A stretch of 51,637 bases of DNA from an uncultured Eubacteriales bacterium (GTDB lineage: Bacteria > Bacillota > Clostridia > Christensenellales > CAG-138), in the NCBI GenBank assembly GCA_902787375.1, contig CADAGD010000002.1, positions 1-51,637 on the forward strand, read 5' to 3'. Of the stretch, positions 10,541 to 26,503 are shown piece after piece (the stretch's first letter is position 1; each line of letters starts with the position of its first letter). Both the position numbers and the translations under genes were made by a program. The notes under the pieces are model-generated. The model was not told where the DNA came from, ran no database searches, and saw nothing but the letters and a program-made list of their open reading frames with translations.

Positions 10541-11975
10541 GCGCATTCCCGATGATGAGTTCAATTCCATCAGAGAAGAAGTTTTAAAGCAATGGCCCAC
10601 AGGCGCGGATGTTGACCTGAAGGAAGCCATTGAGTTCCACAAGTCCCTGCCGGACAAAAAGGTCTTTTCAAAGAAGCTCGTTGACGCCAAGAACAAGGGC
10701 ATTACACTCATTCAGCCCCGTGCCGGCGTCGCGCTCATAGACGCGCAGATAGAGCTTTTGACATACCTTCAGGACAAGGGTGAAGCCGATCTGCTTCCGA
10801 CAACGATTGACAGCTATACCCGTCAGAACCGCTATCAGGAGGCGGAAAACGGCATACGCGAATCCATGAAGGAGCGTCGTTCGATGCTCAACGGCTTCCC
10901 GGCTGTCAACCACGGCGTTGACGGCTGCCGCAGGCTCATAAACAGCCTTGATACCCCCATTCAGGTTCGTCACGGAACCCCCGACGCAAGGCTCCTTACC
11001 GAGATAACCTATGCCGGCGGCTTCACAAGCTATGAGGGCGGCGGTATCTCCTATAACCTTCCCTACGCCAAGAATGTTCCCATGGAAAAGACCATAAGGG
11101 ACTGGCAGTATGTTGACCGTCTTACAGGCATCTATGAGGCAAACGGCGTTTCCATCAATCGTGAGCCCTACGGCCCCCTGACGGGTACTCTCGTTCCCGC
11201 CTGCATCTCCCACGCGGTAGCCATAATCGAGGCTCTCCTTGCCGCCGAGCAGGGTGTTAAGAACATAACCGTCGGTTACGGTCAATGCGGAAATCTCGTT
11301 CAGGACGTCGCGGCAATCCGTGTTCTTGAGGAGCTTACCAACGAATACCTTGAAAAGAACGGCTATAACGACGTCTGCGTCACGACCGTATTCCATCAAT
11401 GGATGGGCGGCTTCCCGCAGGATGAGGCGAAGGCGTTCGGCGTCATAAGCTGGGGTTCCGCCACAGCAGCTCTCTCCAAGGCGACCAAGGTCATAGTCAA
11501 GACTCCCCATGAGGCGGCAGGCGTTCCCACAATGGAGGCTAACGCTCAGGGGCTTCGCTGCACCAAGCAGGTCATAAGTATGCTTGCCGATCAGGTCTGC
11601 ACGGCGAACAATCTTGAGGAAGAGAAGGAAATGATCCGTCAGGAAACCCGCTGCATCGTTGACAAGTGCTTTGAGCTTGGCAACGGCGATATAGCCGACG
11701 GCACGGTCAAGGCCGTTATGAGCGGCGTACTGGATATTCCGTTCGCTCCCTCCCGCTTTAACGCCGGAAAGATGCTCCCCGCAAGGGACAATGACGGCGC
11801 GATACGCATACTTGAGATGGGCAATCTTCCCTTCTCCGATGATATAAAGGCGTTCCATCGCGCCAAGATAGGCGAAAGGGCTAAAGCCGAAAAGCGCAAC
11901 GCCACATTCCAGATGGTAATTGACGATGTTTACGCTATAAGCAAGGGCCGTCTTGTCGGACGCCCCAGGGTTTAA
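10524..11975 (+). CDS. glmE: Glutamate mutase epsilon (large, catalytic) subunit
   Basis: This 483-residue TIM-barrel subunit matches the usual length of MutE/GlmE. Visible conserved stretches include [20 protein letters not shown] and HQWMGGFP. It holds glutamate in the barrel while the B12 on GlmS supplies the radical. Its start lies inside glmL, which points to coupled translation. It is followed 42 bases later by mal. Confidence 0.95.
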
Positions 11976-12017
11976 TAAGCGATAGAATAAAAAAACACAA
12001 AATGAAAGGCAATAAAA

Positions 12018-13268
12018 ATGAAAATCATTGATGTTATCTGCTCAGCAGGACGTACAGGCTTCTATTTCGACGATCAGCGCGCCATCAAGGCGGGCGCAAA
12101 GAGCGACGGCTTCGCTTATGTTGGCGAAACCAAGACCTCCGGCTTCACATCCGTCCGTCAGCCCGGCGAATCCATCTCCGTAATGCTGATACTTGAAGAC
12201 GGTCAGATCGCTATGGGCGACTGCGCTGCCGTTCAGTATTCCGGCTGTGGCGGACGTGATCCCCTCTTCCTCGCAAAGGACTTCATTCCCATAATTGAGA
12301 AGCACATCAAGCCCCGGCTCGTTGGCCGTGAGGCGGATAACTTCCGCAAGCTTGCCGCTGATCTTGAGGCGATAACCGTTGACGGAAAGCGTCTTCACAC
12401 CGCCATCCGCTATGGCATGACACAGGCTCTTCTTGACGCCGTCGCCAAGTCCACACGCCGCATGATGTATGAGGTAGTCGCTGACGAGTACGGCTGCAAA
12501 TTCGAGGCAAAGCCCCTTGACATATTCACCCAGTCCGGTGACGACCGCTACAACAACGCCGATAAGATGATTATAAAGGGCGCGCAGATACTTCCCCATG
12601 CCCTCATCAACAATGTCAAGACAAAGCTCGGTGAGCATGGCGAGCTTCTCCTTGACTATGTAAAATGGCTGCGTGACCGCGTAATCGCTCTCCGCACCGA
12701 CGAGAGCTACTGCCCCATATTCCATATCGACGTTTACGGCACAATAGGAGCCGCCTTCGGCAACGACAATTACAAGGCGATGGCTGACTACATGGCTACC
12801 CTTGAGGAGGCTGCCAAGCCCTTCCACCTGCGCATTGAAGGCCCCATGGATGTTGAGGATCGTGAGAAGCAGATGCTCGCTCTCAAAGCCATCACCAAGG
12901 AGCTTGACGACCGCGGCATCAATGTTGAGATAGTCGCCGACGAGTGGTGCAACACTCTTGAGGACATCAAGTACTTCGCTGACAACAAGGCAGGTCATAT
13001 GGTTCAGATAAAGACCCCCGACCTCGGAGGCATCAACAACACCATAGAGGCTGTCCTCTACTGCAAGGAGCGCGGCATCGGCGCGTATCAGGGCGGTACA
13101 TGCAATGAGACCGACCGTTCCGCTCAGGTCTGCGTACAGTGCGCCATGGCGACACGTCCCGACCAGATACTCGCAAAGCCCGGCATGGGCGTTGACGAGG
13201 GCTACATGATAGTCTATAACGAGATGCAGCGCATTCTCGCTTACGCGAACGCCAAGATGGCAAAATAA
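12018..13268 (+). CDS. mal: Methylaspartate ammonia-lyase
   Basis: This 416-residue enolase-superfamily enzyme removes ammonia from 3-methylaspartate to give mesaconate, the substrate of the hydro-lyase encoded upstream. The catalytic residues known from the Clostridium tetanomorphum enzyme are present: H194 (ILPHALINN), the Mg ligands D238 (HIDVYG), E274 (RIEGP) and D308 (VADEW), and the base K332 (QIKTPDLGG). Positions are counted from this start and are within one of the published numbering as I recall it. It is the last gene of the glm operon, and a strong hairpin follows. Confidence 0.96.
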   Translation: MKIIDVICSAGRTGFYFDDQRAIKAGAKSDGFAYVGETKTSGFTSVRQPGESISVMLILEDGQIAMGDCAAVQYSGCGGRDPLFLAKDFIPIIEKHIKPRLVGREADNFRKLAADLEAITVDGKRLHTAIRYGMTQALLDAVAKSTRRMMYEVVADEYGCKFEAKPLDIFTQSGDDRYNNADKMIIKGAQILPHALINNVKTKLGEHGELLLDYVKWLRDRVIALRTDESYCPIFHIDVYGTIGAAFGNDNYKAMADYMATLEEAAKPFHLRIEGPMDVEDREKQMLALKAITKELDDRGINVEIVADEWCNTLEDIKYFADNKAGHMVQIKTPDLGGINNTIEAVLYCKERGIGAYQGGTCNETDRSAQVCVQCAMATRPDQILAKPGMGVDEGYMIVYNEMQRILAYANAKMAK

Positions 13269-14399: not shown

Positions 14400-16016
14400 T
14401 TACTTTGCAGCTTCCTTCTCATTCTTGGTCGTCTTAACCTTGAAGAGGAATTCCTTATTATCTCCCAGCTTGCGCTCAGGATAATGGCAGGCGCAGAAGT
14501 GGTTGGGCTCGATCTCAACAAGAGGAGGCGTAACCCTGCTGCACTTCTCGGTAGCCATGTAGCAGCGTGTGCAGAACTTGCATCCGGGCGGGGGATTGAC
14601 GGGGCTGGGGATATTTCCTTCGAGGATGATCCTCTCCTTATCAGCCGAGCCTTCCTCAGTCGTGGGAATGGAGGACAGAAGAGCCACAGTATAGGGATGA
14701 CGCGGATCATCGAATATGGTCTTCTTGTCAGCAAGCTCAACTATATTGCCCAGATACATAACGGCTATGCGGTCGGAGATGAACTTAACGACCGAAAGGT
14801 CATGGGATATGAACATGTATGTAAGCTTCTGCTGCTCCTTGAGCTCCTGAAGCAGGTTGATTATCTGGGACTGAATGGAAACGTCAAGAGCGGATACGCA
14901 CTCGTCGCAGACAACGAACTTGGGCTTAACGGCAAGCGCACGGGCTATGCAGATACGCTGACGCTGACCGCCGGAGAACTGATGGGGATAACGGTGCAGC
15001 ATGTACTCCTGCAGACCGCACTTCTCCATCGTTTCAACGATATAGGCACGCAGCCTCGGAGAACCGTGCTTGAAGAAGTTATGCGTTACAAGACCTTCCT
15101 CAATTATCTGGCCGACCGTGAAGCGGGGATTCAGCGAGGAATAGGGATCCTGGAAGATTATCTGCAGGTCTTTACGCAGACCGCGCATCTCCTTGTATTT
15201 CAGACGGGCGAGGTCAATGCCGTTATCGCGCATTGCCTCATACTTCTGGAACTCAGGATCGTCCTTATACTTTGCCCTGACACCGTCAAGCTTTTTCTGA
15301 AGCTCGGCAATCTTGGCATCGACGGTCTTTAATTCGCCCTCGACCTTATCCATCGCGCTCTTGGTTTCAGTAAGCTTCTTCTTGAACGACTCAACCTTCT
15401 TGGATTCGCCGTCCTTTATGGAATGCTCATAGTGCTCATAGTTGACGCGGTTCTTATCAAGACGCTCCCTGATGCCCTTACGCTTCTGGTTCTCACGGTA
15501 AATCTCCATCATAAGGTTAGTAGCTTCGTGATCCTCGTGAGCATAGAAGCCGCCGATGACCTTAACGATGTTGCTCAGGTGAGTCTGCTCCTCGCACTTT
15601 GCGATATTGGCTTCCTGGAGGGTATAGAAATCAGCGGAGTCCTCGCCGCCGGCTTCCTGAACCTTTTTAGCCATCTCCTCAGCCTTATGCTGAGCGTGAG
15701 CGTGCTTCTTGCGGTACTTGGCCTGATTCCTGATTGTATCGCTTACATATTCGGGAACCATATCGTCAATGGTAGTGCCGTAATACAGCGTGCAGCCGGC
15801 TGTCTGGGGATAGAGCTGGAGAAGCACACGACCGAGGGTGGACTTACCGCAGCCGGACTCACCGACTATACCGAGAGTTTCGCCCTCATATATGTCGAGG
15901 GTGATGTCCTCGTTTGCACGGACATACAAACGCTTCTTCTGGAAGATGGAGGACTTTGCAACAGGGAAATATTTTTTAAGATTAGTAACTGACAGTAATT
16001 TTTTTGTGTTCTGCAC
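14400..16016 (-). CDS. oppF: Oligopeptide ABC transporter ATPase (OppF) with coiled-coil insertion
   Basis: This 538-residue ATPase has Walker A (GESGCGKST, 52-60), Q-loop Q289 (FQDPYSS), signature FSGGQRQR (347-354), Walker B ending D371-E372 and H405. It ends with the Oligo_HPY cysteine motif (CKFCTRC...C) that can hold an Fe-S cluster in DppD-type proteins. Ordinary OppF is about 330 residues, with ~50 between the Walker lysine and the Q-loop. Here the gap is about 230, and the extra ~180 residues (about 85-270) are highly charged and predicted to form coiled coil (for example [20 protein letters not shown]). The frame is continuous. The start is GTG 16016, with GGAGG 9 bases upstream, and it overlaps oppD by 35 bases. 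Confidence 0.9.
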
Positions 16017-16995
16017 TGTTCCGTTCCTCCTTATTGGGATAGAAGCACCTTATCTGCTGATCATCGCTGATAGCCTCAAGTGTAGGTTCCTCTTCGATAC
16101 ATTTCTTTGTGCAATATTTGCAGCGGGGCGCGAACTTACATCCCTTCGGCAGGGCGAGGGGATGAGGCACGACGCCGGGAATCGGCTCAAGGCGGTCGCT
16201 CTCATTTTCAAGGCGCGGGATGGAGAGCATCAGACCCTCTGTATAGGGGTGGCTGAAGTTATTCTCGCGGAAAATAACGGAGGCGGGAGCCTTTTCGACG
16301 ACCTGACCGCAGTACATAACGGCAACGTCATCCGCCATCTCATTGATAACGCCGAGGTCATGGGTTATGAATATGATGGCTGTGCCGGTGGATTCCTTGA
16401 GCTCGTTCATGAGCTTCAGTATCTGAGCCTGAATCGTAACGTCAAGAGCGGTTGTGGGCTCATCGGCAATCAGAATCTTGGGCTTACAGGCAAGTGCCAT
16501 AGCTATCATGACACGCTGTCTCATACCTCCGGAGAGCTGATGCGGATACTGCTTGATAACAACCTCAGGATTCGGTATCTGTACGTCATAGAGCATCTTA
16601 ACAGCATGCTCATGGGCTTCCTTCTTGTTCATGCCCTGATGGATCATGAACGGCTCGGAAAGCTGACGGTCGATGGAGAATACCGGGTTCAAGCTTGTCA
16701 TGGGCTCCTGGAATATAACGGAAATATCGTTTCCGCGGACGCTGTACATCTGTTTGAGGGTGTACTTTGTCAGATCCTTGCCCTCAAGGAGAATCTCGCC
16801 GCTGTCGATATAGCCATTGCCGTCAAGGAGCTGCAGTATGCTCATGGCGGAAACGGACTTACCGGAACCGGACTCACCGACTATACCGATGGTCTTGCCG
16901 GCTTCGAGTGTGTAAGATACATCGTTAACTGCTTTTACAGTACCTTTCTTGGTGTGAAAGAACGTATGCAGGTGTTTAACTTCAAGCAAAGGCAT
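15982..16995 (-). CDS. oppD: Oligopeptide ABC transporter ATPase (OppD)
   Basis: This 337-residue ATPase has normal length and all motifs: Walker [10 protein letters not shown]-loop [10 protein letters not shown], signature LSGGMRQR, Walker [13 protein letters not shown] and H-loop ITHDLG. The C-terminal Oligo_HPY region has clustered cysteines ([14 protein letters not shown]). It pairs with OppF at the cytoplasmic face to power peptide import. ATG 16995 is preferred because GGAGG lies 9 bases before it; an in-frame GTG at 17001 is only 3 bases from that site. Unlike its partner OppF it has no insertion. Confidence 0.95.
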
Positions 16996-17009
16996 AATCA
17001 CTTTCCTCC

Positions 17010-19019
17010 TTACTTATCGTTCGAGGACTTGGGGTCAATAACGTCACGGAGAGTATCACCGATGGTATTGATACAAACTGCGGTCAAAACGAGGATGAAG
17101 GCGGTGAATACCCACTGCCACCAGAAGTTGATGGCCGCCGTTGCGTTGGAAGCACGGGTAAGCATGTTACCCCAGCTCGGCTGCGGCTCCATAACGCCGA
17201 ATCCGAGGAATGAGAGCGTGGTCTCAGTCTGGAGCGAAGAAGCGAATGCAAGCGTCATGTCTACAAGAATAACCGAAATAACATTGGGCAGAATATGCTT
17301 GAATGCGATTCGTGTTTCCTTGACGCCCATGGACTGAGCGGCGGTAACGTATTCGCTCTCACGCGCAACGAGTATCTGCGCACGGGTGATGTAACAGAAG
17401 CCGGGCCAGCGGAGTACACCGATTATAGCCATAATCATGTACAGACGCTCATAGACCGTCATGTTCCACCTTAAAGTCAAAGTACTCAGTATCAAAACGA
17501 AGGGTAAGAACGGGATGGAGCTGAATACCTCAGCAACACGCATGATGAGCATGTCAACCCAGCCTCCGAAGTAACCGGCGAGCAGACCCAATGAAACGCC
17601 GAGGATGATCTCGATTATAACCGCGACGATACCGACCGTCATGGTTATCTTACCGCCCGCTATAACACGCTGGAAAATATCCGCACCGCGGCTGTCGGTA
17701 CCGAATATGTATCCCTTGAGTCCCCATGCGTCGATGAGCTTGCCGTTCTCGTCAGCAGCGTAGCTCTGGAAGGAGCCGGCGTAAACCTTGGCGGCGTTCT
17801 TGACCTTGGTGGGAACCTTTGTCTGATAGTAATGATCTCCGCCGAAGCAGTAGACATTACCCTTGTTTGTGATGCCGGTGTAGTGATATGTACCGGACTG
17901 GATATCGACGAATTTCTCGTCAGCCTCAAGCTGAGGAACATCGACTATATCAGCCTCGAAGTCGCCGGTGAAGCCTATCGTACCGTCGTCGAGGAGCAGG
18001 CAGATGTTCTTGGAGGTCGTGCGGATCTCCTGAATCTTGCGGCCGTTAAGGAACTCGCTCATCTTGATGGTCTTGTTGTTGGTTAGGCTTGTTCTGACGG
18101 CGGAATACATGTTCTTAACGCCGGTGAACACGCTGTTCTGGTTCTGATTGATGGCACATACGAAGTTGAGGGTGAAGTCGATATCGACGATGCCCGTCAT
18201 GTAATCGTATTCGCCGGTCGCCTCATCGTATGTGGCGGCGAATCTCTCAAGGTTCGAGTATGCCTGCTTGTTGCCCCAGATATAGAGCGTGCCGTCGTCC
18301 ATCAGAATGGCGGAAGCCTGGAAGCCGCATGTGACCTTCTTGATGTGGTTGACATCAAGCTCGCCGTTGGCGACTATTTCGGGAACGGGAACGAGGTTGG
18401 GGTTTTCAAGAACCACCTTATCGCGGGCAAACTGACCGAAGCGGTTGCTGCCCCAGCCGTAGAACGAGCCGTCCTCGGCGATGGCGATTATATGGTCCTG
18501 ACCGGCAGCCGCGAAGGCGATCTTCTTATCAAGAACCTCCTGCGGGATGTCGGCAACATTAAGTCCTGTTGCGCCGAGCCTTGTGATGCCCCAGAGGTGG
18601 AACTTGCCCGTGTTGGAAACGCCGACGGTGAAACTGCTGTAGGAGTCGATGGTTCTGATACCGTCGGTCTTCATTTCGCCGGGAACACTCATCAGCGACA
18701 TTGTCGGGGGAAGGTCCATCTGGGTGGTTTCGGTAAAGGCGTCATAGTATTTGGGCATGAAGTACGGCCCAATGAACACTACAAGCAGCATAAGAACAAC
18801 GACGAAAACGGCGAATATGGCAACCTTACGCTCGCAGAAGCGGTTAAATATCTGCCTTGCCGGGCTTACTATAAGCTCGGAATCGTCGGGCCTGCTGTTA
18901 TCAGCACCGCCTGCCTGCTTGGAGCCAAACCATTTATCCTCGTATTTGGCGCCCATAAAGCCGCGAACAGCCCACCTTGCAAGCTTGCGGAATATGTTTT
19001 CTCTCTTTTTGTTTTCCAT
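17010..19019 (-). CDS. oppC: Oligopeptide ABC permease (OppC) with inserted RCC1-like beta-propeller
   Basis: This 669-residue protein is about twice the usual OppC length (~300). Residues 66-87 are the first membrane helix. Residues ~113-440 form seven imperfect RCC1-like repeats, each a run like [21 protein letters not shown]. Residues ~440-660 are the normal permease core, beginning at [17 protein letters not shown] and including the EAA loop ([19 protein letters not shown], ~560-578). By topology the propeller would sit outside the cell, between helices 1 and 2. The frame is continuous and the ribosome binding site (GGAGG, 7 bases before ATG) is good, so this is one designed protein. The propeller may dock a peptide, cell-wall component or OppA. 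Function is inference. Confidence 0.93.
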
Positions 19020-19031
19020 TTGTCTGCCTCC

Positions 19032-20072
19032 TTACTTGCTGATACGGACGCGCGGATCGACGAGGCCGTAGGTGAGGTCGATGACGAGGTTGCTGAACAA
19101 TCCGAGGAATGTGTACATGACCTCAAGGAACATTATGAGGTCATAGTCAGCATTTCTTGCCGCATTCAGCATCAGCAGACCCATTCCCTTGAAGCCGAAC
19201 ATGGTTTCAAGAATCATGGCACCGGATATAGTGGCAAAGAAGCTGCCAACTATAATGGAAACCATGGGGATGATGGCGTTGCGCCACGCGTGGCTGTAGA
19301 TGACGGACTTCTCGGTAAGACCCTTGGCGCGCGCTGTGCGGATGCAGTCAAGGCTGAGAGCATCTATCATGGAAGCACGGCAGATACGGGTGGTTCCGGC
19401 AAGGTTGCTGTATATAAGACAGATGGTGGGGAGCGCGATATGCCAGAGCGTATCGAGAACCGCCTTCATGCCCGTATAATTGGTTCCCGCGGTCTTCATT
19501 CCGCTGACCGGGAAAATCTTCAATATTGAACAGAAAAGAACTATAAATATGATGTAAGTAATGAACGAAGGGGTTGAGTATCCGAACAGGGAGAATATCT
19601 GAACTCCGTGGTCGAATCGGCTGTTCTTCTTGACGGCACATTTGATGCCGAGGGGTATCGTAACGCCGAGAACAGCTATCTGTGTGAACAGACCAATGAG
19701 GAACGAGTTCCTTATATAGGGACCAACGAGCTTAATAACGTCCATTCTGTGGTCGTATGAATAACCTACGTCGCCGGTGAGAAGTCCCTTATACTCACCG
19801 TAATAGTTGGGGTAAACTCCGAGCCAGCGCAGATACCTCTTCCAAACTTCGGGAACATCGGTACCGTATTTGCGCTGATACATCTCATAGAGCTCATCGA
19901 ATTTATGCTTCTTCTCCTCCTCGGTCAGCCTCTTCATCGTGCTCACGTCGTTCTTCGCGTCCTGATAGGCGCGGTTGACGGGCATGAGCTGATAGAATGA
20001 ATAAAGAACGAATGTCAGGAGTATGAAGACAAGCACCATGTATACTAACCTTTTAAGTATGTATCTTCCCAT
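19032..20072 (-). CDS. oppB: Oligopeptide ABC permease (OppB)
   Basis: This 346-residue membrane protein has six predicted helices. The family N-terminus (GRYILKRL), the GDVGYSYDHRMDV loop and the EAA motif (RTARAKGLTEKSVIYSHAWRN) are seen. It forms the membrane channel with OppC. ATG 20072 is chosen because AAGGAG precedes it and the sequence starts like other OppB proteins; the frame extends upstream without one. The first external loop is charged and a little long (about residues 35-80). Confidence 0.93.
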   Translation of the reverse strand: MGRYILKRLVYMVLVFILLTFVLYSFYQLMPVNRAYQDAKNDVSTMKRLTEEEKKHKFDELYEMYQRKYGTDVPEVWKRYLRWLGVYPNYYGEYKGLLTGDVGYSYDHRMDVIKLVGPYIRNSFLIGLFTQIAVLGVTIPLGIKCAVKKNSRFDHGVQIFSLFGYSTPSFITYIIFIVLFCSILKIFPVSGMKTAGTNYTGMKAVLDTLWHIALPTICLIYSNLAGTTRICRASMIDALSLDCIRTARAKGLTEKSVIYSHAWRNAIIPMVSIIVGSFFATISGAMILETMFGFKGMGLLMLNAARNADYDLIMFLEVMYTFLGLFSNLVIDLTYGLVDPRVRISK

Positions 20073-20201: not shown

Positions 20202-20288
20202 CAACCGGTATCAGCGCGATTCGGTCGTCCGTTTGAACGTGCTGCGTTGTGTGTTATTGCATTTTGAAATGCTGTAATTCCCAAATAC

Positions 20289-20342: not shown

Positions 20343-22664
20343 TTATTTGTTGAGCCAGAGGACATCAGCATAGTCCTTGATATAGTAGCTGGAGTAATTG
20401 TCATAAATCTCAGGATCGATCGTCATGTTGTAGCTCATATCATACATCGCGGAACCGAAGGAGGTAGCGAAGTTGAATGCGCAGTACATGGGAGAGCCGG
20501 AGTACAGACCTGTGCCGTAACCGCCCTGTGTGAGCTCGTCAAGCATGGGAGCGAAGTCGCCGAGGCTCTTGTAAACAAGCATACCGACGTTCTTAACATT
20601 GCTGTCCTCCTCGAAACCGGTAACGAGCTGATCGGTGAACGGGTTGGGTGTGGTGCCGTACCAGTTGATTACAAGGGGCATATAGTAGTCGCCATTGACC
20701 TCAACGGTCTTGTAAGCGCCGTCAACGGACTGATAGTTCTTATCGTTCTCGTTGATGCAGTCAGCGGGGATCTTCTTATAACGAACACCCTCGGTGTACT
20801 CGCCGCCCTCGGCATTGTAGATCCAACCACCGGCCTCAAGAACCTGGATGGCTGTATCGGCGGATGTGGGATAGCTGTCAAGCTGCATGCCCTGCTTTAC
20901 AGCCTCTTTGTACATCCAAGCACCGGTGTAGTAGGGGCCGTCAACAACGCCGCCGTAACCGCCGGTGAAGTCCTTAGCGAACTGAGCGCGGTCCATGCAG
21001 TAAGCGATCGCCTGACGAACAGCGATGAACTGAGCGGGGCCGTAGTCGCAGCGGAAGCCGAGCTTACCGTAACCGGCACGGCTGTAGTGGATGTAAGCGA
21101 ACTTGCCATTGGACTCGTCGCAAGCCTTCAGAGCATCGTCGGTCTCCTTACCGCCTGTGATGCCGGCAATAACGTCAACGCCGCCGGTCTTGAACTCTTC
21201 AAGCTGTGTGGAAGGAACGAGCTTCTTGTAAACGATCTTCTCGATCTTGGGGGTCGCGCCTTCGTAGTTGCCCTTGAAGTACTCATTGCGAACGAGAACA
21301 GCGGAGCTGTCGGTGGAGTCAAAGGACTCAACAGCGTAGGCACCGGAGAAGGGGTACTTCTGATAGGCTTCCTTGCTGGTATCCATGCAGTTGCTCTTTA
21401 TAGCAGCGGCCTGAACGTATGTACCGTCGGCATTCTTATCATAGAAGCTGTCGGACAGGTAGCAGCCATTGCCGTCATCCATGATGTCAGCATCGCCAAG
21501 GAAGAGAGCCTTGGGGTAAGCAGCGAAAGCAGCATATCCGATATCATAGTAGTAGGGGAGCTGATCGGCGGGAACAGTTATGGAGAACTGATAGTCGCCA
21601 AGCAGACGCAGACCCGCAAACTCCTTGGTGCCCTCTTCGCTGTCGGGACCGGTGTAGGCGTCATAAGCCTTTTCCCAACCGAGGATGTAACGAGCCATAC
21701 GGTTGTTGGCTTCAGCCTCATGACCTACGGGGCTGAGCATAGCCATCTCGAACGCGATGAAGTCCTTGGCTGTAACGGCGGAACCGTCGGAGAACTTAAG
21801 GTCATCATAGATTGTGATGGTGTAGGTCTTGTTGCCGTCAGCATCAACCTCTTCGGTATGCTCCTTAACAATGTTGTCATTCCATGTATAGGAGCCTTCC
21901 TTGGTGGTTTCAACGGTGTTAAGACCTGTGATGAGGCTATGAATATCGTTGTCGGAAGCACCGGGGTTACCGCCGCCGAAGTTGGCAATACGGAACTTAC
22001 CGGAAAGCTCGGTGCTGTTGCCGATGATGATGTCGTGATCCTTCTTATCGGAGGACCAATCGATCAGAGCACTTGTTACGCCCCAGAAGGGGTTGGTGGG
22101 ATGCTCCTCAACGCCCTTGATCTCGGTGTTGTAAGCATCATAGTACTCGTTGGAGTAGAGGGGGATTTCGGGAAGCAGATAGTTCCAGCGGGTGATGTAG
22201 AGCCTCCACCAAGCGGCGTAGACGTCATCCTCAGTCGCATAGTTGCTTCCTTCGGGGTCAATGTTGTAAACCATCGCCATTGTCAGGAAGTCAAGACCAA
22301 GCTCATACTTGGTGCCATCGATCGTGATGTAGGCGAAACCGGTTTCGGGATCCTCTTCGACGTCGGCGATCTTAACATCCTTGCCGTACTGATCGTACAG
22401 GGAGATGTAATCCTTGCCGTACTCGTAGTTGCCAAGGGTCATGATATCAAGCTCAGGAACCTTGTCAGGATCGGGCTCTTCGGTGGGCTCAACGGGTTCA
22501 GCCGATTCACCGGCATCCTCGGTGGCCTCTGTCGTGTTTTCAGGGTTTGTGCCCTGAGTCTCTGTGGGCTTTTCGCTATTGTCAACGTCTGCGGGCTTCG
22601 GTGTGCAAGCAACGATAGCCAGAACCATGACAAGAGCAAGAAGCATAGCCAGAAGTTTCTTCAT
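20343..22664 (-). CDS. oppA: Oligopeptide-binding lipoprotein (SBP_bac_5 family), apparently circularly permuted
   Basis: This 773-residue protein begins with a lipoprotein signal ending in IVAC (C20), then an acidic Thr/Glu/Pro linker (~27-70). The SBP_bac_5 core starts near residue 211 (DIIIGNSTELSGKF) and includes LKFSDGSAVTAKDF. Motifs normally near the C-terminus of this family (PEIPLYSNEYYD, then EIKGV and LIDWS) are found at residues 165-204, before the core. The protein ends at about the place where that block would normally follow. It should capture peptides outside the cell for OppBCDF. ATG 22664 has AGGAGG 8 bases upstream. Confidence 0.9.
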   Translation of the reverse strand: MKKLLAMLLALVMVLAIVACTPKPADVDNSEKPTETQGTNPENTTEATEDAGESAEPVEPTEEPDPDKVPELDIMTLGNYEYGKDYISLYDQYGKDVKIADVEEDPETGFAYITIDGTKYELGLDFLTMAMVYNIDPEGSNYATEDDVYAAWWRLYITRWNYLLPEIPLYSNEYYDAYNTEIKGVEEHPTNPFWGVTSALIDWSSDKKDHDIIIGNSTELSGKFRIANFGGGNPGASDNDIHSLITGLNTVETTKEGSYTWNDNIVKEHTEEVDADGNKTYTITIYDDLKFSDGSAVTAKDFIAFEMAMLSPVGHEAEANNRMARYILGWEKAYDAYTGPDSEEGTKEFAGLRLLGDYQFSITVPADQLPYYYDIGYAAFAAYPKALFLGDADIMDDGNGCYLSDSFYDKNADGTYVQAAAIKSNCMDTSKEAYQKYPFSGAYAVESFDSTDSSAVLVRNEYFKGNYEGATPKIEKIVYKKLVPSTQLEEFKTGGVDVIAGITGGKETDDALKACDESNGKFAYIHYSRAGYGKLGFRCDYGPAQFIAVRQAIAYCMDRAQFAKDFTGGYGGVVDGPYYTGAWMYKEAVKQGMQLDSYPTSADTAIQVLEAGGWIYNAEGGEYTEGVRYKKIPADCINENDKNYQSVDGAYKTVEVNGDYYMPLVINWYGTTPNPFTDQLVTGFEEDSNVKNVGMLVYKSLGDFAPMLDELTQGGYGTGLYSGSPMYCAFNFATSFGSAMYDMSYNMTIDPEIYDNYSSYYIKDYADVLWLNK

Positions 22665-22858: not shown

Positions 22859-23464
22859 CTATTCGCTGTAATATGAATTGGGCTTTTCCTCTCTATCTAT
22901 GTTATAAATCAGCCTCAGCATTACAAACAAACACACGATCGTTATTACGCTCAACGCTATATACATCCAATCTATGCCAATGAAAATCATGAAGGATTCG
23001 ATGATCCTGTATATCAATCCCGTTATGAGCGACAGCCCCGTCATTATCATTACCGCCACTCCAGACCTCGACATCCTGATAAAGCTGTGCGCTTCCCTGT
23101 CCCTGTGCATCGGCTTCATCCTGTACGGAAGGTCGATTATTCCCATCAGCAGATAGAATACCGGAAACAGCGCGAGAATCCTCGGCCCCATAATCAGATA
23201 ATTGTCCGAACCGAAATGCGACCCCATCATCAGCGTCCATATATGGCACACCGCCGCTATCACTCCAAGCACCGCCGCAATTATCATCCTTGTAAGCGCG
23301 GCCTTCTTCTCGGTCGTTATCACTACCCACGGGCCTATGTACCGCGCTACCCTGCGCTTCCTGCCCTTCGAGTTCTCAACTTCCTCGATCTTATAATCAT
23401 CAACGTATTTGAGCGTGTCCGAAAACTTGAAAACCGAACCGCTCTTGTTGTCGAATAGTGCCAT
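22859..23464 (-). CDS. Integral membrane protein of unknown function
   Basis: This 201-residue protein has a basic soluble head (about residues 1-55) and four predicted membrane helices (about 58-80, 90-112, 132-155 and 163-185). I do not recognise the family. It starts at ATG 23464 behind GGGAG and has its own promoter. It lies between the opp operon and the degV genes on the same strand. Nothing in its sequence suggests an enzyme. Confidence 0.75.
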   Translation of the reverse strand: MALFDNKSGSVFKFSDTLKYVDDYKIEEVENSKGRKRRVARYIGPWVVITTEKKAALTRMIIAAVLGVIAAVCHIWTLMMGSHFGSDNYLIMGPRILALFPVFYLLMGIIDLPYRMKPMHRDREAHSFIRMSRSGVAVMIMTGLSLITGLIYRIIESFMIFIGIDWMYIALSVITIVCLFVMLRLIYNIDREEKPNSYYSE

Positions 23465-23683: not shown

Positions 23684-24550
23684 TCAGCGTTCCCTGCCCT
23701 CAAAGAACAGCGCGATGGTACCCGGACCCGAATGGGCTCCTATCACGGGGCCAATATCCGTTATCAGCTTCGCGTGATTGCCATGCTCGTTGGCTATCAT
23801 CGACTCAAGCTTTTTCGCGTCCTCTATGCTGTCGCCGTGGGATATGAAATATGTGCATCCGGCGGGATCGAGTGCCATTTCCGAAAATTTCTTCGCCATT
23901 GCCTTGAGCGATGCGTTCCTGCCCCTTACCTTAAGCATGGGTATGAGCAGACCGTCGTTATCCACATGAAGCACCGGCTTTATGTTCAGCATTCCTCCGA
24001 AGAACGCCGCTGTAGCCGAAACCCTGCCCCCCCTCTTGAGGTATACAAGGTCTTCGACCGTGAACCAATGGCAGAGCCTCGGAAGCTTGGAATTGACCTC
24101 CGCCTCTACTTCGTCGATACTCCCGCCCCTGCGCTTCGCTTCGACCGCAAAGTACAAAAGCAGTCCCTCTCCCGCCGACGCGCAGAGCGAATCTATCACG
24201 ATTATCCTGTTGTCGGGATATATCGGCGCAAGCTGCTCCGCCGCAAGCTTTCCCGCTCCGACCGTGCCGCTCAGACCCGATGAAAAACCGAGGTAGAATA
24301 TGTCCTTCCCATCTTTCAGCACCCGCTCGAAAGCCTTCTTTATGCTCTCCGAGTTCGCCGCGGACGTCCTGTAAACCGTTCCGTCCCTCATGTTGTCATA
24401 GAATTCCTTGTTGCTTACGTCGGTTTGGGTGAAATCAAGGTTGGAACCGTCAGCGCGGAATGTCAAGTCTATACAAACAACTCCCCATTCCTTTAGCAGC
24501 TCCGGTGAAATATCACAACTGCTGTCGGAAAAAATAACATATTCTCTCAT
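23684..24550 (-). CDS. DegV family fatty-acid-binding protein (copy 1)
   Basis: This 288-residue protein has the DegV fold signatures SDSSCDI, TSAANSESIKKAFE, LGFSSGLSGT, DSLCASAGEGLL and the C-terminal PVIGAHSGPGTIALFF. DegV/FakB proteins bind a fatty acid, and FakB present it to the kinase FakA. No fakA is nearby. The sequence is clearly more distant from copies 2 and 3 than they are from each other. GGAGG lies 7 bases before ATG 24550. Confidence 0.92.
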   Translation of the reverse strand: MREYVIFSDSSCDISPELLKEWGVVCIDLTFRADGSNLDFTQTDVSNKEFYDNMRDGTVYRTSAANSESIKKAFERVLKDGKDIFYLGFSSGLSGTVGAGKLAAEQLAPIYPDNRIIVIDSLCASAGEGLLLYFAVEAKRRGGSIDEVEAEVNSKLPRLCHWFTVEDLVYLKRGGRVSATAAFFGGMLNIKPVLHVDNDGLLIPMLKVRGRNASLKAMAKKFSEMALDPAGCTYFISHGDSIEDAKKLESMIANEHGNHAKLITDIGPVIGAHSGPGTIALFFEGRER

Positions 24551-24604
24551 TCATCTACCTCCGAAAAATTTTATTCTCAATCCGCGCTTCTGCAATGGAT
24601 TTAT

Positions 24605-25498
24605 TCACATATTCCTCACGCCGTCGCATCCCTCAAAAAAGAGCGCGACGGTTCCCGGCCCCGCGTACGAACCCGTGACAGGCTCATATCTCTCAATCAG
24701 AAATCCCTTGGGCTTCCATATGGCCTCAAGCATGTCCCGCAATGTGTATGCGTCCTCAGGACAATCCGTATACGCTATGCACACAAGCTGATCCTTCAGC
24801 CTGTCAACCAGCTTCCTGTATGCGTCCGCAAGCACCTCAAGCCCGCGCTTTCTGCCCTTCGTCTTGCCGCACAGCACGAGCCTTCCCTCTTTGTTGCCCT
24901 TGAGTATGGGACGTATTCCAAGCAGCGTGCCGAGCAACGCCTTGGGCGCGGATATCCTCCCGCCCTTGTGCAGAAACATCAAATCGTCAAGCATCGCCAC
25001 CTGATAGAGCGACTGCCTTTCCGACTCTATTAAATCAGCCGTTTCGTCAAGGCTCATGCCCTTTTCACGGCACTCGACCGCCCTCAGCACCGCCTTGCCC
25101 TCGCCAAGCGAAGCCGCAAGCGTATCCACTATCCGAAGCTTCCTCTCAGGATATGCCTCTCGCATCTGCGCCGCCGCCAGCTCCGCCGAATTGTATGAGC
25201 CGCTTATTCCCGAACTCATTCCGATGAATACTATATCCTCGCCCCTGCTCAGTATTGGCTCAAAAACATCTATATACTGCTGTGGAGATACCTGCGACGT
25301 CGTTACCCTCGCACCGTCCTTGAGCCTCTTGTAATACATATCGCCCTTGCCGCCGCTGAATTCCGTCGTGTCAAGACAGCAATGCTCCTCTCCGTCAAAG
25401 CTGAATGTAATGGGTATTACCGAAATGCCCTTCTCTTCAAGCATCGGAGTGGGTAGATTTGATGTTGAATCGGTAACTATCGCAAAGCCCTTGCTCAT
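24605..25498 (-). CDS. DegV family fatty-acid-binding protein (copy 2)
   Basis: This 297-residue DegV protein starts VTDSTSNLP and has TSQVSPQQYIDVFEP, FIGMSSGISGSYNSAE, DTLAASLGEGKAV and the C-terminal PVTGSYAGPGTVALFF. It is very similar to copy 3 throughout, so the pair arose by recent tandem duplication. It probably carries a fatty acid in the cytoplasm. A promoter and a ribosome binding site (GGAGG) of its own precede it. Confidence 0.92.
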   Translation of the reverse strand: MSKGFAIVTDSTSNLPTPMLEEKGISVIPITFSFDGEEHCCLDTTEFSGGKGDMYYKRLKDGARVTTSQVSPQQYIDVFEPILSRGEDIVFIGMSSGISGSYNSAELAAAQMREAYPERKLRIVDTLAASLGEGKAVLRAVECREKGMSLDETADLIESERQSLYQVAMLDDLMFLHKGGRISAPKALLGTLLGIRPILKGNKEGRLVLCGKTKGRKRGLEVLADAYRKLVDRLKDQLVCIAYTDCPEDAYTLRDMLEAIWKPKGFLIERYEPVTGSYAGPGTVALFFEGCDGVRNM

Positions 25499-25530
25499 GC
25501 CGCGCCTCCATATACATAATTTCTTGTATC

Positions 25531-25559
25531 AGATTATCATATCAGAAATATCAAGTCAA
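25531..25559 (-). promoter_or_regulatory. Promoter of degV copy 2
   Basis: Minus strand: TTGACT (25559-25554), 17 bases, TAATCT (25536-25531). Confidence 0.65.
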
Positions 25560-25609
25560 GCGTTTTTTGCCCGAATGGCACTATCCGTTCACAGTTTTTT
25601 TAAGCCGGA

Positions 25610-26503
25610 TCAATACTCTCTTACGCCCGGTTTTCCCTCAAAAAACAGCGCGATGGTTCCCGGCCCAACGTACGAACCCGTGACCGGCTCATAGCGTTCT
25701 ATCAAAAAGTCCTTGACCTTCCATATGGCTTGCAGCGTATCCCGCAGAGTATAGGCGTCCTCCGGGCAGTCGGTATAGGCTATGCACACAAGCTGCTCCT
25801 TCACCCTGTCAATGAGCGTTCTGTACTTTTCCGCCAAAATCTCAAAGCCGCGCTTTCTGCCCCTCGCCTTGCCGCATACGACAAGATGTCCGTCGGGACT
25901 TCCCTTGAGTATGGGACGCATCCCAAGTACGGTTCCAAGCAACGCTTTGGGCGCGGATACCCTGCCTCCCCTGTGGAGGTACATCAGATCATCCAGCAGA
26001 ACGACCTGATAGAGCGATTCCCTGTCCGAAAGCAGCCTGTCCGCGGTTTCATCAATGCTGAGCCCCTGACTTCTGTACTCCACCGCGTGAAGCACCGCCT
26101 TGCCCTCGCCAAGTGACGCGGCAAGCGTATCCACCGTGCGTATCTTTCTTTCGGGATAGGCTGCCCTAAGCTGCTCGGCGGCAACCTCGGAGGAATTATA
26201 GGAATTGCTGATGCCCGAACTCATTCCGACAAAGAGTATGTCCTCCCCGCTTTTGAGCAGCGGCTCAAGCACCTCAATATACTTCTGCGGCGTTATCTGT
26301 GACGTCGTCACCTTTACGCCCGCCTTGAGCTTGGCGTAAAACTCCTCGCCCTCGCCACCGGCAAATTTCACAGTATCGAGGCAGAGATGCTCCCTGCCCT
26401 CAAAATTATAGGTAAGTGGAAGAACCACTATGCCGTTCTCCTTAACCATCGGCGTCGGCAGGTTCGCCGAGGTGTCCGTCACTATTGTAAATGGATATTC
26501 CAT
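25610..26503 (-). CDS. DegV family fatty-acid-binding protein (copy 3)
   Basis: This 297-residue DegV protein starts VTDTSANLP and has TSQITPQKYIEVLEP, FVGMSSGISNSYNSSE, DTLAASLGEGKAV and PVTGSYVGPGTIALFF. It is the close paralogue of copy 2. ATG 26503 has AAGGAG before it and a promoter with a perfect -35. Separate promoters for each copy suggest they can be expressed differently. Confidence 0.92.
   Translation of the reverse strand: MEYPFTIVTDTSANLPTPMVKENGIVVLPLTYNFEGREHLCLDTVKFAGGEGEEFYAKLKAGVKVTTSQITPQKYIEVLEPLLKSGEDILFVGMSSGISNSYNSSEVAAEQLRAAYPERKIRTVDTLAASLGEGKAVLHAVEYRSQGLSIDETADRLLSDRESLYQVVLLDDLMYLHRGGRVSAPKALLGTVLGMRPILKGSPDGHLVVCGKARGRKRGFEILAEKYRTLIDRVKEQLVCIAYTDCPEDAYTLRDTLQAIWKVKDFLIERYEPVTGSYVGPGTIALFFEGKPGVREY

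Follow-up and report, generated by a model that had tools for sequence, protein, structure and literature searches.

The window analysed here, 51,637 nucleotides of DNA from an uncultured Eubacteriales bacterium, raises the question of whether a permease subunit of a peptide importer can carry a whole propeller within its own chain, and of what such a domain would do there. The gene concerned, oppC (OppC-type permease with an inserted seven-bladed RCC1-like propeller), lies on the minus strand at 17010..19019 (ATG at 19019, stop at 17010) and encodes 669 amino acids with zero internal stops; the plus-strand reading of 17010-19019 is interrupted by stops. A sequence-only reading had described a single 669-residue frame here, and its coordinates were right, with minus as the strand.

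Profile searches, as that reading had proposed, placed the RCC1 and BPD_transp_1 families over their curated Pfam cut-offs. OppC_N was matched at residues 52-105 (36.0 bits; cut-off 23.9) and BPD_transp_1 at residues 474-664 (111.6 bits; cut-off 26.4), and between them RCC1_2 (76.1 bits in 3 stretches; cut-off 22) and RCC1 (29.3 bits, including a match at 183-238; cut-off 21.7), the Pfam RCC1 repeat matches spanning about residues 124 to 352. The whole-domain model WD40_RLD was not reached (103.9 bits; cut-off 150), its best stretch covering 124-352 only. Among NCBIfam models, Opp4C was nearest for the permease part, at 280.2 against a cut-off of 350, which is short of equivalog membership, and OppC remained under the cut-off of every NCBIfam family listed (25 of the 28 matched); from these profiles we would class the protein as OppC-type, not as Opp4C.

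When aligned by phmmer to OppC of E. coli (8z21_B; E 1.9e-46 overall), the C-terminal part matched residues 80-301 and the N-terminal part, weakly (4.0 bits), residues 31-78; because of these two flanking segments, the first of them weak, the inserted stretch is placed at OppC residues 108-434 (17718..18698, minus strand), between E. coli residues 78 and 80. The extra length in the loop between TM1 and TM2 is about 325 residues. The first membrane helix, read as 66-87 from the sequence, is residues 65-87 in the structural model described below (18759..18827, minus strand) and holds a hydrophobic 19-mer at 66-84 within OppC_N. The canonical permease core that had been noted after the repeats starts at residue 439 and extends to 664 (17028..17705, minus strand), with the EAA motif near 556-579, where E556, A560, A561, G565, H575, P578 and N579 are invariant among 56 aligned rows; the EAA coupling motif of an OppC permease (E556, A560, A561, G565) is thus present. 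In this permease type that motif lies in the cytoplasmic TM4-TM5 loop, according to a passage of PMC12136057.

The inserted part was matched to solved chains of HERC2, UVR8, RPGR, RCC1 and BLIP-II in a search of PDB sequences, and since RCC1-family matches reach E 2.3e-17, a chance likeness to RCC1 is excluded; BLIP-II itself was matched at E 1.3e-7, with OppC residues 352-434 as the best stretch. An AlphaFold2 model, computed from an alignment of 56 rows (the window and 55 of the 80 related loci), gave pLDDT 85.5 and pTM 0.77, with blocks of the inserted part mostly >90, and ordered the chain as helix 65-87, seven groups of three strands, and the permease helices. The predicted blades, all on the minus strand, comprise residues 121-144 (blade 1; 18588..18659), 167-190 (blade 2, overlapped by the Pfam RCC1 match at 183-238; 18450..18521), 226-250 (blade 3; 18270..18344), 277-309 (blade 4, the least conserved; 18093..18191), 329-352 (blade 5, degenerate; 17964..18035), 370-394 (blade 6; 17838..17912) and 411-433 (blade 7, running straight into the FGTD elbow; 17721..17789). 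In Foldseek, ranks 1-10 were all OppC/DppC chains, followed by UVR8, BLIP-II, RPGR, HERC2 and the ACR4 ectodomain at E values of about 4e-13 to 2e-10; TM-scores by target length for BLIP-II were 0.72-0.74 (1jtd_B, 3qi0_A, 3qi0_C) and 0.67 (3qhy_B). The model and its fold matches support the insert as a seven-bladed RCC1-like propeller within an otherwise ordinary OppC. The seven RCC1-like repeats of the sequence-only reading accordingly reappear as seven predicted three-strand groups with matches to solved RCC1 domains, and the structure prediction that could have spoken against them returned a propeller; the YxWG-like strand claimed for each repeat is found in some blades, but the tryptophan of the strand-C W-G is absent from blades 4 and 5.

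Among the blades, 1-3 are the most conserved (0.73-0.76) and blade 4 the least (0.53), a bias that would suit a one-sided interface. The junction residues P105, G433, G436 and G440 are invariant (56/56 rows), and model confidence is high through the propeller exit into the FGTD elbow. For a chain with two large domains, a pTM of 0.77 suggests some confidence in how the two are placed relative to each other, and together with the invariant junctions it would point to a rigidly placed propeller. By the topology of the OppC/DppC family the propeller should lie outside the membrane; the earlier claim that it faces outside agrees with this topology and stays at the same conditional strength. DppC possesses a TM1-TM2 periplasmic region (a passage of PMC12136057). 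Acidic residues outnumber basic ones in the inserted loop (43 D/E, 31 K/R), and the reverse holds for the N-terminus of OppC (14 K/R, 9 D/E).

The architecture recurs beyond this genome. In its own family, 20 of 103 genomes (own included) match the insert strongly (E 7.6e-28 or better), all of them in OppC genes; 21 more match weakly (E about 1e-8 or worse), and the OppC core was found in none of ten loci fetched for weak-match genomes (L029-L038). A scan of genome contigs returned 404 stretches, 395 of them relatives, of which the best 80 were kept as loci. In 78 of these best 80 of 395, the propeller oppC is one frame of 616-822 amino acids, and in L073 and L092 it is split into two; NCBI ranks 79 of the 80 as Bacillota, 75 of them being Clostridia, and 62 of the 80 were taken as animal-gut by title words or codes. 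Single-sequence searches, which underestimate its frequency, detected the propeller type in 9 genomes among 391 of the class and in 7 among 398 of the phylum (own included in both), five of these 7 belonging outside the class; all 13 other genomes from these searches carry a propeller oppC beside the other opp genes, in the same gene set. The survey of homologues that had been called for as a check for an assembly join thus finds the insertion again in one frame, also outside the class, and that objection fails. When 118 genomes of the class were queried with the permease core, 66 gave OppC-like matches, the six propeller-type genomes ranking first. One contig, L109 (Candidatus Fimimonas), is Myxococcota by NCBI and its OppC core groups with Clostridia, possibly, as we would guess, through a naming fault.

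The propeller would seem, on a quick tree, to have arisen once in OppC. In a tree of 127 permease cores with the insert omitted (quick search, SH-aLRT support only; identical cores, matches covering <200 residues of the core query, and L135, a second cut of the L127 gene, were omitted), the 101 propeller OppCs are split from the rest by a single branch (support 100), and the propeller label requires one change, where shuffled labels need 24 on average. The 26 other OppCs all fall outside this clan, and all 101 members keep the propeller, in a set of rows found mostly with propeller queries, so that losses are under-sampled. Several unrelated acquisitions are not needed for one clan with support 100. 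The genome's own other OppC over the family cut-off (contig C40; 365 amino acids) is without a propeller. Long first loops with different inserts also occur in near relatives outside the clan (L163, L164, L166, L168, L169, L170, and a second OppC of L073 at 11831-13201), some of these inserts being repetitive by eye; in the six scanned (L163, L166, L168, L169, L170, L073) no Pfam family was found over its cut-off there. Because near relatives hold other inserts there, loop 1 of OppC looks like a recurrent insertion site; judged by eye, those inserts precede a PPS..H element where readable, and the propeller follows the corresponding place. The same genome also encodes a separate protein, a frame of 1027 amino acids, with seven RCC1 repeat matches (contig C28, 33208-34158; L001-L007).

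The opp operon of the window is complete (OppABCDF), and on this gene content OppC is a subunit of a complete, predicted Opp-type peptide ABC importer. On the minus strand, oppC is joined by oppB (19032..20072; 346 amino acids from an internal ATG, the ORF itself starting at 20204 and the start being set by the commonest ortholog lengths of 346-350 amino acids), which includes an extracellular scoop-type loop (about 19716-19991, minus strand), and by genes for two ATPases with profile matches, oppD (15982..17001, 339 amino acids) and oppF (14400..16016, 538 amino acids). Among the best 80 of 395 loci, OppB, OppC and OppD are found in 80, OppA in 71, OppF in 72 and all five in 67; where OppA or OppF is missing, contig ends are nearby. 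The genes keep the order A-B-C-D-F in all but two of the 80, the exceptions being L056, with a further OppF-like piece ahead, and L073, where genes are broken or doubled. Upstream of oppA, a small putative membrane protein (22859-23464, minus strand; no Pfam family over cut-off) has relatives in 25 of 80 loci (30-41% identity), followed by three DegV-type genes in tandem (23684-26503, minus strand), the second and third 34-35% identical to the first; on the other side, a methylaspartate ammonia-lyase gene adjoins the operon (12018-13268, plus strand).

Two further subunits are unusual. OppF carries an insertion of about 180 amino acids (residues 85-262; 15231..15764, minus strand), partly coiled-coil-like by weak Pfam matches, which would lie between Walker A and the Q loop. 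OppF is 506-590 amino acids long where intact in the propeller clan and 328-347 in five sister operons, whose intact OppFs do not have the insertion; a sixth sister OppF is cut. Searched against solved structures, the insertion had as its best match a designed miniprotein at E 0.0078, which is not meaningful, and in the contigs of L053, L143 and L152 oppF is split into two frames. According to a passage of PMC12136057, C and F are paired subunits in DppBCDF, and because of this pairing the propeller and the OppF insertion would share one half of the machine.

The other is OppA (20343..22664, minus strand), a lipoprotein-type binding protein of 773 amino acids which is circularly permuted: a segment ending in IPLYSNEYYDAYN (residues 85-201; 22062..22412, minus strand) sits near the N-terminus and is C-terminal in unpermuted relatives. 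By phmmer against OppA of 9p48, residues 228-302 align with 16-86, 457-585 with 189-311, and 137-200 with 495-555, and the moved segment searched alone finds the same place (E 1.4e-4); similarly, residues 206-759 match 29-595 of the OppA of L106, and 122-201 match 632-700. A model from an alignment of 29 loci and the window (pLDDT 84.9, pTM 0.82) matches binding proteins of the same family, with TM-scores by target of about 0.5-0.6. In a profile test of OppA frames, 60 were permuted, 22 unpermuted (L100, L101, L103, L106, L110, L111, L114, L116, L118 and deeper loci) and seven unscored. Mapped on the OppC tree with six outside OppCs as root, 59 permuted and 20 unpermuted loci require one change (support 80), the unpermuted rows being the deeper ones and the nearer relatives permuted. 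Because the deeper propeller loci keep an unpermuted OppA, the propeller is probably older than the permutation; that the propeller requires the permutation is rejected, as 20 of 79 scored loci combine a propeller with an unpermuted OppA. No report of a permuted peptide-binding protein was found in the literature searched.

The divergence of the propeller was compared with that of its neighbours by partial rank correlation of pairwise distances over seven partitions, in 70 of 96 loci; the other 26, lacking the full five genes in the expected size ranges, were omitted. Given all other partitions, the propeller correlates with OppA at 0.57 [0.44, 0.68] and with its own core at 0.19 [0.05, 0.35], and with OppB (-0.02), OppD (-0.04), the OppF ATPase part (0.01) and the OppF insert (0.03) near zero; raw-distance partials gave a small value for OppF (0.20 [0.03, 0.33]). 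With the OppB scoop loop separated, pairs with known contacts behaved as expected (OppB core and OppC core, 0.85; OppD and OppF, 0.43), OppA and the scoop, a contact of a known kind, correlate at 0.53, and the propeller correlates with OppA at 0.36 [0.21, 0.49], with the scoop at 0.21 [0.07, 0.37], with its own core at 0.20 and with the cytoplasmic parts near zero. In the 50 loci with permuted OppA the value for propeller and OppA was 0.65 [0.47, 0.75]; in the 16 with unpermuted OppA it was 0.31 [-0.03, 0.58], not significant, and only the OppF insert was clear of zero (0.31 [0.03, 0.54]). An outside control, a penicillin-binding protein, was available for 42 loci (none was obtained from six of 29 and from seven of 28 genomes, and a second candidate of the own genome, L196, was left out); there the propeller correlates with OppA at 0.65, with its own core at 0.42 [0.25, 0.55] and with the control at -0.10, the control being weak, of mixed orthology and tracking nothing well. 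With the scoop added to the 42-locus set, the values were 0.34 for the own core, 0.32 for the scoop and 0.28 for OppA, so that with the scoop counted OppA is not distinguished from the other two. The divergence of the propeller tracks that of OppA more than that of the cytoplasmic subunits; the comparison with its own core depends on the locus set. Among the roles suggested by the sequence-only reading (capture of peptide or wall ligands, gating of OppA access, binding of another surface protein), this comparison of rates favours a connection to OppA.

Our preferred reading, held tentatively and at slightly less than an even chance, is that the propeller forms an extracellular wall against which OppA docks, an arrangement comparable to MalF-P2. 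In an ancestor of this operon family, the extracellular TM1-TM2 loop would have taken up a propeller immediately ahead of the FGTD elbow into TM2; as a fixed wall on the OppC side the propeller would flank OppA, while the scoop loop of OppB would enter OppA from the opposite side, and it may help to recruit OppA and keep released peptide in a closed cavity. The TM1-TM2 scoop motif of DppB occupies the cleft of DppA, as a passage of PMC12136057 describes. Docking is favoured because of the co-divergence with OppA and a conservation pattern suiting a one-sided interface; a direct contact between propeller and OppA, and an effect on transport, are what we infer from these. Against docking, correlated rates prove no contact, for OppA, scoop and propeller lie together outside the membrane or have a substrate in common, and most OppCs are without such a domain (six propeller-type among the 66 OppC-bearing of 118 sampled genomes). 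The own-core correlation (42 loci) and the OppF-insert correlation (16 loci) also count against it.

Docking and ligand capture both predict co-divergence with OppA, and we favour docking first and capture second. As a receptor, rather unlikely in our estimate, the propeller would bind peptides or wall fragments by its funnel or a blade face and feed OppA or the translocation path as a second, tethered site. Polar inner-loop residues in blades 2, 3, 6 and 7 fit such a site (H176 in 55/56 rows; Q234, H379, Q418 and Y420 in 56/56), and a shared substrate would equally give the observed co-divergence; but these positions belong to the common RCC1 repeat motif and may be structural, and several PDB titles for the nearest folds (BLIP-II, UVR8 and RPGR) name complexes with proteins. 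A bolder reading, which we consider unlikely, would make this a distinct class of Opp importer, in which a propeller outside and a domain of about 180 amino acids in the ATPase inside were added to the OppC-OppF half, and OppA was later permuted within the same family; it would use a different docking cycle, with the tethered propeller receiving or holding OppA and the OppF domain reading the state.

It appears improbable that the partner of the propeller is instead some third component, be it peptidoglycan, a penicillin-binding protein or a different protein of the surface, through which the importer would be anchored or shielded within the envelope. BLIP-II, a near fold match, binds beta-lactamase, and the ectodomain of the ACR4 receptor is also among the matches; on the other hand, divergence follows OppA in the 70-locus set, the penicillin-binding protein is without co-divergence (weak as that control is), and only oppA, B, D and F are constant among the compared neighbours, the small upstream gene being present in 25 of 80 loci. 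That the insert is ballast which the protein tolerates, or a module for folding or stability without a specific partner, is more improbable still: loop 1 takes unrelated inserts in L163, L166, L168, L169, L170 and L073, and blades 4-5 drift, but every one of the 101 clan members keeps the propeller, with 0 of the 26 others inside the clan (losses being under-sampled), and blades 1-3 and the junctions are strongly conserved. A join of two genes in assembly is rejected as having practically no chance, since, with two split frames in 80 loci and no other support found, the propeller oppC is one frame in 78 of 80 contigs, lies within single contigs of 3,132,933 and 1,809,746 bases, and occurs in genomes outside the class.

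The propeller-bearing OppC is, by these results, a real and conserved architecture, and apparently an undescribed one: the open-access literature searched yielded no description of an RCC1 domain within OppC or any ABC permease, in line with the earlier remark that no described transporter was known to have such a design. Opp importers supply bacteria with peptides and bring in signal peptides, and how the binding protein is held during unloading has been argued mostly from short loops. A family with a whole propeller on one permease subunit, combined with permuted or unpermuted OppA, offers a natural experiment on docking, and the naturally permuted OppA is interesting in its own right, because it dissociates the order of the chain and the fold of a transport partner.

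In comparison with known systems, the OppC/DppC subunits of OppBCDF (8z21), DppABCDF (8z1v-z), OppABCD (8j5q-t) and DppABCD (8wd9-b) share with the window OppC_N, BPD_transp_1, the FGTD elbow, the EAA loop and the operon order, and differ by the about 325 extra TM1-TM2 loop residues of the window OppC. BLIP-II, UVR8, RPGR, HERC2 and the ACR4 ectodomain have seven blades and the RCC1 motif, as does the window propeller, which in contrast sits in a loop of a transporter membrane subunit and has degenerate blades 4-5. From MalF-P2 of the maltose importer the window propeller presumably differs in fold, in loop and in subunit family. Both, the window propeller by prediction, are large folded extracellular insertions in one permease subunit; that of MalF, in a type I importer, contacts the binding protein (in passages of PMC3150292), and for the window propeller the corresponding contact with OppA is proposed. 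The DppB scoop is likewise a periplasmic TM1-TM2 element, and it engages the binding protein (in a passage of PMC12136057); it is, however, short and on the B subunit, whereas in the window OppB keeps its own loop and OppC gains the propeller.
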